DNA from: an alpha proteobacterium SCGC AAA028-C07
GTDB taxonomy: Bacteria > Pseudomonadota > Alphaproteobacteria > Pelagibacterales > Pelagibacteraceae
Length of the DNA stretch: 58,966 nt
Assembly (NCBI GenBank): GCA_000419465.1
Contig: ATTB01000002.1
Coordinates: 79,841-138,806 of the forward strand
Direction of reading: 5' to 3'
Below are positions 6,429-49,485 of this stretch, one piece after another (within the stretch, counting starts at the first letter, position 1; every line of letters begins with the position of its first letter). The notes beneath the pieces were generated by a model that was not told the DNA's origin, ran no database searches, and saw only the letters and a list, made by a program, of their open reading frames with translations. A program made the translations under genes and the position numbers.

Positions 6429-7046
6429 CTAATATTTAAAATATCTTTTTATTTTATTAAACGCTTTATAACGATGACTAATTTTATCCTTTGTATTGGC
6501 CTTCATCTCGCCAAAAGTTTTTTTATAACCATTTGGAATAAATATAGGATCATAGCCAAATCCATTGTTACCTTTTGGTTCTGATGAAATTTTTCCGTCA
6601 ACCACTCCGCTAAATGTTTTGTATTTTCCGTTTGGAAAAGCAATTGCTAAGGAACAATAAAATCTAGCATTATTTTCTTTGTTTAATTTTTTTTTCTTTT
6701 TTATTTTTGAATAAACTTTTTTAATTGCTAATTTAAAATCTTTGTTCTTTCCTGCCCATCTAGCTGAATAAATTCCAGGATCGCCATTTAAAGTTGATAT
6801 TTCTAGTCCTGAATCATCAGACAATGATATTAATTTGGATTTTTCCGCACAATATCTTGCTTTAATTACAGCATTTCCCTCAAAGGTTTTTTCATTCTCA
6901 ATAGGTTCGATTAGGTTAAAATCTTTTGGACTATAAAAAGTAATTTGTTTTGGTAATAATTTTTTGATTTCTGAAAGTTTTCCTTTATTGTTAGTTGCTA
7001 TCAATAAAGATTTTATATTTTTTAGATTTCTAAAGTTTTTTTTCAA
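6429..7046 (-). CDS. rdgB: dITP/XTP pyrophosphatase (RdgB/HAM1)
   Basis: The enzyme removes ITP, dITP and XTP from the nucleotide pool, hydrolysing them to monophosphates. The 205 residues carry the family motifs: the N-terminal substrate loop ATNNKGKLSEIKKLL near residues 17-31, the Mg-binding SDDSGLEIS near 77, GIYSARWAG near 91 and the C-terminal GFGYDPIF near 162 with SHRYKAF near 190. It overlaps the 3' end of rph by 17 bases, so translation of the two is likely coupled. rph-rdgB linkage is a conserved bacterial pairing. Confidence 0.95.
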   Translation of the reverse strand: MKKNFRNLKNIKSLLIATNNKGKLSEIKKLLPKQITFYSPKDFNLIEPIENEKTFEGNAVIKARYCAEKSKLISLSDDSGLEISTLNGDPGIYSARWAGKNKDFKLAIKKVYSKIKKKKKLNKENNARFYCSLAIAFPNGKYKTFSGVVDGKISSEPKGNNGFGYDPIFIPNGYKKTFGEMKANTKDKISHRYKAFNKIKRYFKY

Positions 7047-7752
7047 AACAAGACTTTTGATGTTGTATTATTTCTTTTATTGCACTCTTTGAAATTTTTA
7101 GCATTTCGCTTAGATCTTGATCTGAAAATGTCTTTCTCTCCCCTGTTGCCTGAATTTCAACTAATTGCATATTCTCAGTTATAACAAAGTTAGCATCGAT
7201 ATCTGCTTTGCTGTCTTCTTCATAATTTAAATCTAATAAAATTTTACCATCTACAATTCCACAACTAACCGCCGCTATATATTGTTGCATTGGATTTGTT
7301 TTAATTTCTTTATTTCGAAGTAAATGCTCAATACATAATTTTAATGCAACAAAACCACCTGTAATGGCCGCTGTTCTTGTTCCGCCATCTGCAGTTAAAA
7401 CATCACAATCAATTGTAATTAATTTTTCATTTAACAATCCTAGATCAACAACAGCTCTTAATGATCTTCCAATTAATCTTTGAATTTCCGATGTTCTTCC
7501 TCCTATTTTACCAACCGCAGCCTCTCGTCTCATTCTTTCATGGGTAGATCTTGGTAACATTCCATATTCAGCTGTTACCCAGCCTTTTCCTGAACCAACA
7601 AGCCATCTTGGAACTTTTGAGTCAACTGAAGCAGTACAAACGACTTGTGTTTCTCCAAATTTAACGAGGCAGGAACCTTCTGAATTTTTAATAAAATTTG
7701 GAATTATCTCAATTTTTCTTAAACTAAGATTATCTCTGTTATCTTTTCTCAT
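7030..7752 (-). CDS. rph: Ribonuclease PH
   Basis: RNase PH is a phosphorolytic 3'-5' exoribonuclease that trims tRNA 3' ends. The chosen start MRKDNRDNLSLRKIEI gives 240 residues, the usual family length. The frame remains open upstream to 7875, but that extension is hydrophobic, unlike the family, and would overlap divergent grpE, so it is rejected. Motifs seen are RSTHERMRREAA, GRTSEIQRLIGRSLRA, DCDVLTADGGTRTAAITGG and LDLNYEEDSKAD, which include the phosphate- and RNA-binding arginines and catalytic aspartates. The gene opens the rph-rdgB-rsmI-BON operon. hrcA, which lies between rph and grpE in many alphaproteobacteria, is absent here. Confidence 0.95.
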   Translation of the reverse strand: MRKDNRDNLSLRKIEIIPNFIKNSEGSCLVKFGETQVVCTASVDSKVPRWLVGSGKGWVTAEYGMLPRSTHERMRREAAVGKIGGRTSEIQRLIGRSLRAVVDLGLLNEKLITIDCDVLTADGGTRTAAITGGFVALKLCIEHLLRNKEIKTNPMQQYIAAVSCGIVDGKILLDLNYEEDSKADIDANFVITENMQLVEIQATGERKTFSDQDLSEMLKISKSAIKEIIQHQKSCFEKKL

Positions 7753-45881: not shown

Positions 45882-45956
45882 GCGGGTGTAGCTCAGTGGT
45901 AGAGCGAATCGTTGCCAACGATTAGGTCGTGGGTTCAATTCCCTTCACCCGCTCCA
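45882..45956 (+). tRNA. tRNA-Gly (anticodon GCC)
   Basis: A complete cloverleaf of 75 bases with encoded CCA. The acceptor stem GCGGGTG pairs with CACCCGC; the D arm is GCTCAGTGGTAGAGC; the anticodon stem AATCG/CGATT has loop TTGCCAA and anticodon GCC at 45914-45916; the T arm GTGGG-TTCAATT-CCCTT has a GTTCAAT loop with a weaker stem. Its 3' end (45934-45958) recurs exactly at 48305-48329, so it serves as the attachment site of a small island. Confidence 0.97.
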
Positions 45957-45958
45957 AA
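45934..45958 (+). repeat. attL-like 25 bp direct repeat (3' end of tRNA-Gly)
   Basis: The last 23 bases of the tRNA plus AA form a 25 bp string identical to 48305-48329. This is the left boundary of the island. The tRNA stays functional because the repeat restores its 3' end. Confidence 0.9.
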
Positions 45959-46005: not shown

Positions 46006-46027
46006 GGCAGACAACTGGCAGACAACT
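46006..46027 (+). repeat. Tandem GGCAGACAACT copies near the tRNA
   Basis: Two exact adjacent copies (46006-46016, 46017-46027), 50 bases after the tRNA. They are the same 11-mer that occurs 5' of each island gene and just inside the right boundary. Tandem placement beside a tRNA attachment site is typical of integrase arm-binding sites, though no integrase is present to test this. Confidence 0.8.
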
Positions 46028-46050
46028 TTTTTGATAAAATTCTCTAAAAA

Positions 46051-46893
46051 TTAATTAATTTCAGTCTTATTTGCTTTTTTATTTTTTATTATATCTTGGA
46101 TAGCATTCATTACTTCCTTTTCCACACCTTTAAAACCGTGCTGAGTTTCTGCTTCACAAGGCGAACCTTTAAATCCCGAACCGCCTAGTACTGTAATTAA
46201 AGGTAAATTAAATTCTTTAGTAATTTTTTGAGCACCAGAATATGTTGTTTTATCACAAGGGTCGTCTTTGTGATGAACAAAGAATTGAGGAATATTTACT
46301 TTTTTATAATTAAATCCCCCAAGTTCTCCGTAAGAACCTCTTTTAGTTGGTTCTGTAATTGCAGCAGTATGAATTGCACCCGAATAAAAATTCGTGTCAT
46401 AAGTTGGCATAAAAGAAGATGAAATTGTACCCATACTTGTTCCAATCAACCAAACTTCTTTAATGCTAGGATATTTTTTCTTAACTTCTAAAATTAGTTT
46501 TGAAACATCATCGTGCCTTTCTAGAGAAGATTGGTAACTACTTGAACAAACACCAGTTACTGTGGGTTTACAATCTACAATCAGCATTGCGATTTCTGTA
46601 TCAGCAAGGTGTCTTCTTGCTCTAATTAGAAAGTTTCCAGTTAGTTTAGAACTATGCATAACTTCATTTTTCATTTCAGGAATAACTATAGAGGGGTATC
46701 CAGGCAACAAGACAGCAAGATATTTAGGTTGGTTTGAATTTACCTTTAATGAAAAAACTCCTTGCTGGTTTTTATTATCTGCGGTTGTAACTGAGATTAA
46801 AATTTCTTTAAGACCTTGAGCGTGTGCTGGTATTTCATTTGCTTTAATAGAGGTAGCAAATATTAAAAATAAGGTAAAAATTATTTTTGTCAT
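46051..46893 (-). CDS. Exported alpha/beta hydrolase
   Basis: The 280 residues begin with a Sec signal peptide MTKIIFTLFLIFATSIKA. The remainder has the alpha/beta-hydrolase pattern: strand LAVLLPGYPSIVIP near 54-67, nucleophile elbow EVWLIGTSMGTISSS near 146-160 (Gly-Thr-Ser-Met-Gly), an acid in FFVHHKDDPCD near 209, and ETQHGFKG near 253 carrying the His. Four or more cysteines near these loops could form disulfides in the periplasm. The substrate is unknown. It is the left gene of the tRNA-Gly island, 47 bases from the next gene, and is preceded by the 11 bp motif as part of a promoter-like block 6 bases from its ATG. Confidence 0.75.
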   Translation of the reverse strand: MTKIIFTLFLIFATSIKANEIPAHAQGLKEILISVTTADNKNQQGVFSLKVNSNQPKYLAVLLPGYPSIVIPEMKNEVMHSSKLTGNFLIRARRHLADTEIAMLIVDCKPTVTGVCSSSYQSSLERHDDVSKLILEVKKKYPSIKEVWLIGTSMGTISSSFMPTYDTNFYSGAIHTAAITEPTKRGSYGELGGFNYKKVNIPQFFVHHKDDPCDKTTYSGAQKITKEFNLPLITVLGGSGFKGSPCEAETQHGFKGVEKEVMNAIQDIIKNKKANKTEIN

Positions 46894-46911
46894 TATAACA
46901 TAATAATCTTT

Positions 46912-46934
46912 AAATCTCAGGTAGACAACTTTTT
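46912..46934 (-). promoter_or_regulatory. Repeat block with promoter-like elements before the hydrolase gene
   Basis: Read on the minus strand, AAAAAGTTGTCTACCTGAG-type sequence gives a -35-like TTGTCT, then 17 bases, then TATTAT and 6 bases to the ATG at 46893. The block AAATCTCAGG(T/C)AGACAACTTTT is shared with the upstream region of the neighbouring island gene at the same distance from its ATG. There is no Shine-Dalgarno sequence, so the mRNA may be leaderless. Confidence 0.45.
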
Positions 46935-46940
46935 AATAAT

Positions 46941-48209
46941 TTAATCTACGCTTCCATTTAATTCTTTAAGAATATTATTCCACAATGGCAGCAAATCACC
47001 TGCCATCGTTCCATAACTTTTTTTAAATGAATCGTGATCTTTATTCGCAGCAATTTGTACCATCACTATTTTTGATGATGGTTGGACACAGATTACTTGA
47101 GTGTAGTGACCCAAGGCACAAAATGTTCTTGTTTTATTTTCTTGTATCCAAGTTTGATAACCATAACTATGTATGAATGCTTCGTTGCCAACCCCGATAT
47201 GAGATTTTGGAATTTTGTTAATATCTGTCGCGTCTAAAAGATAATTCAAAGATATCACCTGGTTATTTTTATATTTTCCATCATTTGCAAGCAAAACGCC
47301 AAATCTTCCAAAATCATTTAGTGATGCAATAAAACCACCTTCAGTAAATTCTATATTATCAGGAGCGTAGGTCCATCTTGCCGTACCTCCGCCTCCCATT
47401 GGTTGCCATAACCACTCTGTAGTTAATGTGGAAATATTCTTTCCTGTCGCTTTAAATAAAACTCTGCCTAAAATCATCGTATCTTGATTTGAGTATCTAA
47501 ATTTTCCTTTAACCCCTCTACTACTTAATCCATTTAAATATTCTTCAAATTTTTCTGGTTTTCCATAGTTTTCATTCTTTAGTAAAACTGAATACATTGG
47601 GTGACCAGGTATATCCATATTCTCGTAAGATCCTCCTTCGACACCAGATGCCATTAGAAGCAATTCCTTAATTGTTACATTGCCATAAGGAGAGTTCTTA
47701 ATTTCAGACCAGTAAGTGCCAACAGTATCGTCGAGTGATTTTATAAAACCTTTTTGGTGAGCAATGCCTGTGAGCATAGCGGTTACAGTTTTTGACATAG
47801 AAAAACCTCTTAAAATCATATCTGCTTTTCTGCCATACTGGTAACGTTCAAGGACTATTTCTCCATTTTTAATAACTAAAAAACCCATCACAGGATGCTT
47901 TGCAATATATTCATCAGTTTTTTTAATAAGTTCTAAAGGAGGATTTGCCATAAACTTAAAATTAATAGGATCAGAAGAAGGATTAACCGATCTTAAAATA
48001 CCACCCAGAACTTTATGAATTTCAGAAATATTTCCAACTCTACATTCTACTCTTCTCCAATGGTCACCATAAGGTGTGCAGGTAGCAAAGTTTCTGTCCT
48101 CGCCCATAGTTTTGGCATCAGGACCAGTGTCATTAAATTTAGATTGTTGTGAATAAGCGTGAGGTTGGATTAGAAAAAAAAATAATAATAAAAGAATTAA
48201 TTTTTTCAT
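46941..48209 (-). CDS. Exported serine hydrolase, class C beta-lactamase family
   Basis: The 422 residues begin with a Sec signal peptide MKKLILLLLFFFLIQPHAYS. The beta-lactamase/penicillin-binding fold shows SxxK as GFSMSKTVTAMLTG near 132-145 (catalytic Ser-Lys), the Tyr motif as FRYSNQDTMILGR near 237 (Y-S-N), and GGFIASLNDFGRFG near 290. A C-terminal HTG-like site is seen only as ALGHYTQ. Relatives include esterases, 6-aminohexanoate hydrolases and D-aminopeptidases, so antibiotic resistance should not be assumed. It is the right gene of the tRNA-Gly island. Its ATG is preceded by the repeat block at 48227-48248. Confidence 0.82.
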   Translation of the reverse strand: MKKLILLLLFFFLIQPHAYSQQSKFNDTGPDAKTMGEDRNFATCTPYGDHWRRVECRVGNISEIHKVLGGILRSVNPSSDPINFKFMANPPLELIKKTDEYIAKHPVMGFLVIKNGEIVLERYQYGRKADMILRGFSMSKTVTAMLTGIAHQKGFIKSLDDTVGTYWSEIKNSPYGNVTIKELLLMASGVEGGSYENMDIPGHPMYSVLLKNENYGKPEKFEEYLNGLSSRGVKGKFRYSNQDTMILGRVLFKATGKNISTLTTEWLWQPMGGGGTARWTYAPDNIEFTEGGFIASLNDFGRFGVLLANDGKYKNNQVISLNYLLDATDINKIPKSHIGVGNEAFIHSYGYQTWIQENKTRTFCALGHYTQVICVQPSSKIVMVQIAANKDHDSFKKSYGTMAGDLLPLWNNILKELNGSVD

Positions 48210-48226
48210 TTAAGCATTGTAATACA

Positions 48227-48248
48227 AAATCTCAGGCAGACAACTTTT
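48227..48248 (-). promoter_or_regulatory. Repeat block with promoter-like elements before the serine hydrolase gene
   Basis: On the minus strand, TTGTCT, 16 bases, TACAAT, then 6 bases to the ATG at 48209. The block is nearly identical to that at 46912-46934 and has the same spacing to the start codon. A further GGCAGACAACT at 48256-48266 lies just upstream. No ribosome-binding site is visible. Confidence 0.45.
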
Positions 48249-48304
48249 CAAAATAGGCAGACAACTTCGTCTGGAAGCATTGATTTTACTAGCATAGTGA
48301 GGTA

Positions 48305-48329
48305 TTCAATTCCCTTCACCCGCTCCAAA
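48305..48329 (+). repeat. attR-like copy of the tRNA-Gly 3' end
   Basis: Exact 25 bp match to 45934-45958. The sequence to its left, AGTGAGGTA, shows only partial likeness to the tRNA, so this is a 3' fragment and not a second tRNA. Confidence 0.9.
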
Positions 48330-48360
48330 TCAGTAATTAACAATTAATGAAAAATATTAA

Positions 48361-48540
48361 CCAGACATAATTGTTATTGAATTTATAAGTAATAATTTAA
48401 AAAAACAGGAATTTTATAATCAAGACATTCAGAAGGTTATTGCTTCCTCGATATATAAATTTTTGTTATTAAATGACTATTCGTTTGTTAATTGGTTTGG
48501 GTCAGATTTAATTTTTGTTAATAATAAAATTAAAGATTAG
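48361..48540 (+). pseudogene. C-terminal remnant of an FkbM-type methyltransferase
   Basis: A 59-codon open segment ends at TAG 48538-48540, but a stop at 48358-48360 and no start codon precede it. It reads PDIIVIEFISNN near the start and later VIASSIYKFLLLNDYSFVNWFGSDLIFV. This has the shape of the end of FkbM-type methyltransferases, in which a hydrophobic strand VIE precedes a Y-x-F-V-N-W-like ending. The intact FkbM gene lies 35 bases downstream. It looks like the tail of a gene cut when the tRNA-Gly island region was rearranged. Confidence 0.55.
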
Positions 48541-48575
48541 TAATTTATGTCATCATATTACTTTAAATATTAAAA

Positions 48576-49481
48576 ATGAAGCAAAATTTTTTTTCAAAAA
48601 TCTTACAAAAATATTTATCTAATAAAGATATTAGAAAATTAAAAAATAATTTATTTTATTATCTATTCTTTAGACTTATCAGAAATTTTCTCAAAGGTGA
48701 TATTAAAATCAAAGCATATAATTTTTTTATTAATGCCAGCGTCAAAAAAAACAAAATGTCTAATAAATTATTAAAAAAATGCTATTTTGCTGAAGAAGAA
48801 ATGTTAGAAATTATAGAAAAAATTTCTAAGCACAAAAAAGTATTCCTATTAGACTGTGGTGCTAACTATGGTTTTTATTCATTATTTGCCGCATCTTTAT
48901 CTGAAGCAAATAGAATCATAGGCTATGAAGCCTCACCAATTACAGCAAATTCCTTTAGAGATAATGTTGGATTAAATAATTACAAAAATGTTTTTAGTAA
49001 AAATTTAGCAATCTCACATAACGCAGAAGAATATATAAATTTTAACGAAAGTTTAAATGATTGGGAAAGCTCCGCTACTCATGAACTCTTTCTTGAAAGT
49101 GTTGTTAAAATAAAAACTACCACTATTGATTCAGAATTACTTAATGAAAATTTGAATAATTTTAGTCTTGTTATTAAATTAGATATAGAAGGAAATGAAT
49201 TTAATGCTATCCAAGGAGGAATTAATTCTATTGGCAAATACGATCCTTTAATAATAATTGAGTTATCTAAATATAATTTAAATAATAAGAATTATAATTT
49301 TATATTCTTTAAAAATTTTTTAAGTGCAAAAAAATACACAGTATATAATAAACAATTAAGACCGGTCACTGTAGATATGCTTATAGACGATATAAATAAT
49401 TTAGATAAAAATAATCAAACTATTGGAAATTATTTTTTAATTAAAAATTCTTCCTATTTACATAATTTATTACTAAATTAA
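48576..49481 (+). CDS. FkbM-family methyltransferase
   Basis: The 301 residues have an N-terminal basic helical part (about 1-80) and a SAM-dependent methyltransferase domain with VFLLDCGANYGFYSLFAASLS near 89-109 (motif I D-x-G-A-N-x-G), IIGYEASPITANSFRDNV near 113 and LVIKLDIEGNEFNAIQGG near 202-219 (the FkbM hallmark KxDxEGxE). Members methylate sugars or polyketides, often in surface-polysaccharide loci. It has no other glycan genes nearby. It follows the truncated FkbM remnant and may belong to the variable region beside tRNA-Gly. The next gene starts 4 bases later. Confidence 0.88.
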   Translation: MKQNFFSKILQKYLSNKDIRKLKNNLFYYLFFRLIRNFLKGDIKIKAYNFFINASVKKNKMSNKLLKKCYFAEEEMLEIIEKISKHKKVFLLDCGANYGFYSLFAASLSEANRIIGYEASPITANSFRDNVGLNNYKNVFSKNLAISHNAEEYINFNESLNDWESSATHELFLESVVKIKTTTIDSELLNENLNNFSLVIKLDIEGNEFNAIQGGINSIGKYDPLIIIELSKYNLNNKNYNFIFFKNFLSAKKYTVYNKQLRPVTVDMLIDDINNLDKNNQTIGNYFLIKNSSYLHNLLLN

Positions 49482-49485
49482 TTTA

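Follow-up and report, generated by a model that had tools for sequence, protein, structure and literature searches.

A two-gene island at tRNA-Gly(GCC) of a freshwater SAR11 bacterium bounded by candidate arm-type sites of a tyrosine integrase

The window (the whole 58,966-nucleotide stretch of DNA analysed here) contains five copies of an 11 bp repeat in an island at a tRNA-Gly(GCC) gene. Very probably this repeat is an arm-type site of a tyrosine integrase and the island is a non-autonomous, CIME-like element; the middle copy of the repeat likely marks the fusion of two one-gene elements. The att core is duplicated, relatives have empty sites, and an integrase-bearing relative has the same end anatomy around different cargo. 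Binding of the repeat by the integrase, mobilisation of the island in trans and the fusion history are inferred. The window and these relatives belong to the freshwater SAR11 genus that includes LD12 single-cell genomes (LD12 assignment from PMC5962901), among them AAA028-D10 (G011, contig AZOF01000002) and AAA280-B11 (G007, contig AQUH01000010).

Results

Structure of the island

An insertion of 2.37 kb at the 3' end of the tRNA gene, between 25 bp att duplicates, makes up the island. The duplicated core comprises the final 23 bases of the tRNA and the following two, and its second copy begins at 48305. The features of the region are as follows.

45882..45956, plus strand: tRNA-Gly(GCC), the integration target (ARAGORN; Rfam tRNA 70.6 bits)
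45934..45958, plus strand: attL core TTCAATTCCCTTCACCCGCTCCAAA, 3' end of the tRNA gene (direct repeat with 48305; single copy in the empty sites of G004 and G002)
46006..46016, plus strand: L1, candidate arm-type site GGCAGACAACT (49 nt after the tRNA; place and spacing as in G011)
46017..46027, plus strand: L2, candidate arm-type site (11 bp from L1, as in G011)
46051..46893, minus strand: cargo gene 1, 280 aa, apparent signal peptide (ORF; weak alpha/beta-hydrolase similarity, GTSMG motif)
46920..46930, plus strand: middle copy M (GGTAGACAACT), read as a probable R1/L2 fusion scar (flank comparison)
46941..48209, minus strand: cargo gene 2, 422 aa class-C beta-lactamase-like serine hydrolase, apparent signal peptide (PF00144, E 3.5e-25)
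48235..48245, plus strand: R1, candidate arm-type site (right end kept in G011 and G007)
48256..48266, plus strand: R2, candidate arm-type site (21 bp from R1, 38 nt before attR; spacing identical in G011 and G007)
48305..48329, plus strand: attR core, duplicate of the tRNA 3' end (direct repeat)
48330..49485, no strand: older material that follows attR, up to the next core gene (lacking at the empty sites of G004 and G002)

Between the att cores we found two hydrolase-like genes only, and no integrase or transfer genes. The similarity of gene 1 to Hydrolase_4 (E 0.014) is below the cut-off, and a single distant relative of this gene (26%) was found among the other 12 genomes of the genus, in G006. 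Gene 2 matches PDB 4gb7 (E 3.7e-32), and its nearest solved structures are 6-aminohexanoate-dimer hydrolase-like; no relative of gene 2 was found in the same 12 genomes. The older material beyond attR may be the decayed remains of an earlier insertion at this tRNA. An FkbM methyltransferase gene (48576-49481, PF05050) is located there, between attR and the next core gene.

The repeat, GGYAGACAACT, which can also be written GG(C/T)AGACAACT, occurs exactly at 46006, 46017, 46920, 48235 and 48256, and all five copies are on the plus strand, so that the five same-orientation copies of the original prediction are confirmed at exactly the positions given there. When up to one mismatch was allowed, the window held six matches against 0.73 expected from shuffles, and none of 100 shuffles reached six. 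The exact repeat had been described as confined to the island within the window, which holds, and the same is true of the entire assembly (846,566 bases; about 76% complete), where the five island copies are the only exact ones. The longer block said to be common to the upstream regions of both genes, AAATCTCAGG(T/C)AGACAACTTTT, is real and present at 46912 and 48227. The repeats are direct and not inverted, four of them forming two end clusters (11 bp and 21 bp start to start) and the fifth being internal. They do not delimit gene-sized modules at even spacing. Among the literature matches listed, no relevant paper had the motif as such.

The tRNA-Gly site in related genomes

In G004 and G002 the site is empty, with one att copy and the next core gene within about 45 bp of the tRNA. 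In G011 the same tRNA carries an island of 24 kb whose genes include those for an integrase, a serine resolvase, helicases and a DNA methylase, and the ends of this island are those of the island in the window. The left end has in both cases a gap of 49 nt from the tRNA to the first repeat and a second repeat at 11 bp, while the right end, in G007 as well, has two repeats spaced by 21 bp, with the att core 38 nt further on. The repeat thus clusters near the att cores at both ends, in two copies each and at fixed distances, and this geometry, common to an integrase-bearing island, is as arm-type sites predict. No product of a conjugation gene could be recognised in the set of G011 proteins scanned. 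The 24 kb island also encodes a large helicase/nuclease-like protein (AAA_11/12, RNase_H_2, Cas4-like; L026, 11699-15076) and a PIF1-like helicase (L027, 8970-10478).

Other genomes of the genus hold different contents at this site. G007 has a one-gene island with a complete right end and with the left arm pair missing. The contig of G005 starts within a gene, which is followed by AAATCTCAGGCAGACAATT and then directly by the core gene; the hydrolases of the window and G005 have no detectable relationship. G003 has a left-end-like stretch without arm repeats, followed by an FkbM methyltransferase, which differs from that of the window (no detectable relationship between the two proteins), and a glycosyltransferase-like gene.

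The right-end repeat pair was sought in 397 genomes of the family. Different single genes were indeed found between the ends, but at one tRNA-Gly site and in one genus: the right-end repeat pair occurs in 3 of the 397, all in this genus, and the left pair in only two of these. The repeat is accordingly no general feature of SAR11 tRNA islands and belongs to one integrase type and one tRNA-Gly site in this genus. Isolated matches in G003, G004, G008 and G011:C53 are unrelated, because they lie inside a umuC-like coding gene (reading GIGRQL), and a viral match (L017) within a phage coding region was taken as chance.

The integrase and related elements

Arm-binding tyrosine integrases include lambda Int and Tn916 Int. 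They form a well-known class in phages and ICEs (PMC8138268), and the ends described here resemble theirs in having short accessory repeats near the core, whereas the G011 integrase differs from the class in scoring under the Pfam cut-offs. This integrase (L026, 4212-5447) matches PHROG integrase family 1 (E 1.6e-12) and gave no match to a Pfam arm-binding domain. A low-confidence structure model (pLDDT 46) places strand-strand-strand-helix in this order at the N-terminus, as an arm-binding domain would show.

Relatives of the G011 integrase were detected in five other genomes of the 397 searched, the window's own genome included, and none in a viral contig scan or in tblastn of phage records. 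Three full-length relatives were examined, one adjoining groEL in the window's own genome and two adjoining tmRNA in G309 and G258, with 27-30% identity to the G011 integrase. Their elements bear other direct repeats of 8-12 bp (ACTTCTTTGA, TCAACGAAGT and GGTACATAGT), each element having its own repeat, of which two or more copies lie within 200 bases of each end. Five elements were tested, their ends set by eye according to the att repeats; for words of 9 or 10 bases, no dinucleotide shuffle out of 1000 gave end clustering as high in any of them. Of the tandem arm motif of G309, no exact copy was found in another genome.

The suggestion of recombinase arm sites in the original prediction is thereby strongly supported at the level of sequence comparison, since the ends are identical on an integrase island at the same tRNA and the end organisation is alike in three related elements; for the same reasons, the end copies are best read as arm-type sites. 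With both att cores and both arm clusters in place but no integrase, the island would be a non-autonomous, CIME-like cargo element. No cognate integrase was found in the window's own genome, where one phage-integrase-type gene was detected, in an element with different arms; a cognate integrase could sit in the missing part, because the genome is about 76% complete.

Two further observations concern these related elements. The integrase element of the window's own genome (L071, G000:C7, 1846-14741) lies between hisG and the groEL 3' end, with a 14 bp repeat, TTACATTCCCATTC, on both sides. In G258 (L073, G258:C1, 5187-15462) the tmRNA 3' end recurs in six copies or near-copies; beyond an integrase element, several of these have single genes between them. 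The arm motif of the G309 integrase (L072) appears three times, as copies or near-copies, in the unit at 7046-7582.

The middle copy

In G011 the middle copy of the repeat has hybrid flanks. The 58 bp downstream of it match those after L2 (score 38, against 21 for the best of 500 shuffles), and the 8 bp before it are AAATCTCA, as before R1 of the window. This is what an R1/L2 fusion of two tandem elements would leave, and fusion through R1 and L2 is well supported for G011 by these flanking sequences. For the window, the upstream flank of the middle copy matches R1 (score 18, against 16 for the best of 500 shuffles). The downstream flank gave no significant match to L2, and the fusion history of the window therefore rests on analogy with G011; on this analogy its middle copy is likely a fusion scar.

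Alternatively, the middle copy may be no fusion scar but stand on its own, as a remnant such as an older element's arm site or as a copy arisen by chance. We regard this as unlikely. It is in line with the window, where likeness to the right end can be demonstrated for the upstream flank of the middle copy only, but the middle copies of two genomes have the same upstream block AAATCTCA, and the downstream flank in G011 is clearly left-end-like.

Other roles of the repeat

The repeats could be cassette attachment sites at which genes are gained and lost by recombination, as in an integron-like array. The single genes between the repeats differ from genome to genome, and middle copies part the genes both in the window and in G011, which is the outcome that a cassette system would give. 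A cassette site has no need, however, of the fixed distances from the att cores at which four of the five copies are found, and this role leaves those distances unexplained. The related integrases have their own repeats grouped at the element ends, and the G011 middle copy combines a right-end flank with a left-end flank. Nor was an integron-type integrase found nearby: the sole phage-integrase-type gene found in the window's own genome is the distant integrase at groEL, and the repeats are direct, whereas integron cassettes have an IntI integrase and, between them, attC-type sites with inverted-repeat structure. The cassette system originally proposed thus has its outcome borne out, different single genes lying between the ends; its units, however, are flanked by att, a fusion scar explains the internal repeat better than a cassette attachment site does, and we consider cassette sites improbable.

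That the repeats are promoter or operator elements common to both cargo genes is most improbable. In favour of this role, the window has the block directly upstream of both genes, and the minus strand offers a weak -35-like TTGTCT and a -10-like hexamer. Against it, promoter-like sites are no commoner than shuffling would produce (15 against 13.8), no gene start lies in front of the left tandem pair, and the 24 kb island has the same ends around other genes. The claim of shared promoters fails as a general role because in G011 and G005 the block comes after the gene. The description of one copy on the 5' side of each gene is likewise correct for this island, but not for these two relatives, in which the AAATCTCAGGCAGACAA block lies downstream, past the stop codon of the gene. 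Promoter and cassette roles could both still operate as side effects.

Discussion

In the mechanism that we favour, with the repeats as arm-type sites, a tyrosine integrase would insert DNA at the 3' end of tRNA-Gly(GCC) in LD12 bacteria, its N-terminal domain gripping the arm repeats while cutting and rejoining take place at the 25 bp att core. The island in the window would need such an integrase in trans, which an element like the 24 kb one of AAA028-D10 could supply. Two tandem one-gene elements could be joined when R1 of one recombines with L2 of the next, with loss of R2, att and L1.

The island bears similarities to the CIMEs and tandem accretion related to ICESt1 and ICESt3 in Streptococcus thermophilus (PMC5704250), which are att-flanked and have lost their integration genes. 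Like the island, CIMEs are stacked at one site and are presumed to be movable by a helper integrase (PMC5704250). The units described here differ in that they are single genes with no sign of a conjugative ancestor, and in that they appear joined at arm repeats with the internal att lost, whereas CIMEs are separated by an att copy (PMC5704250).

Partial likenesses can be drawn to other systems. The Dehalococcoides ssrA islands are also arranged in tandem at an RNA gene, many of them without an integration module, and are proposed to be cis-mobilizable, but use a serine recombinase at tmRNA, and no arm repeats are described in the available part of the report (PMC3146451). Additive tRNA islands such as fGI-2 of the Methylophilaceae (PMC10872708) and those of the Actinomarinales (PMC7771536) have cassettes down to one gene between tRNA 3' repeats; in the excerpts of these two papers the tRNA repeat alone is described, with neither arm sites nor a matching integrase. 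Tycheposons of Prochlorococcus, likened here by their description in an excerpt of PMC10872708, are tRNA-linked and have a tyrosine recombinase and cargo genes, but are described there as elements of 4-200 kb.

Judged from the sequences compared, what appears to be new are the end repeats of this integrase family, the integrase-less single-gene elements that bear them and the joining of such elements at arm repeats. A further possibility, which we hold to be rather doubtful, is that arm repeats serve as joints of gene-stacking, single-gene elements at one tRNA being fused repeatedly into one att-flanked mobile unit. If this were true, streamlined bacteria would build cargo islands gene by gene while keeping no integrase.

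LD12 and other SAR11 bacteria, with their very small genomes, are among the most abundant cells of lakes and the sea, and their ways of acquiring genes are poorly understood. The present analysis offers a concrete and testable mechanism, in which an integrase family with one end repeat for each member could also move one-gene islands that have no integrase. A fusion scar would show that an island can grow with no att copy left behind, and the arm repeat may serve as a search tag for elements that gene-based methods seeking integrases would miss.
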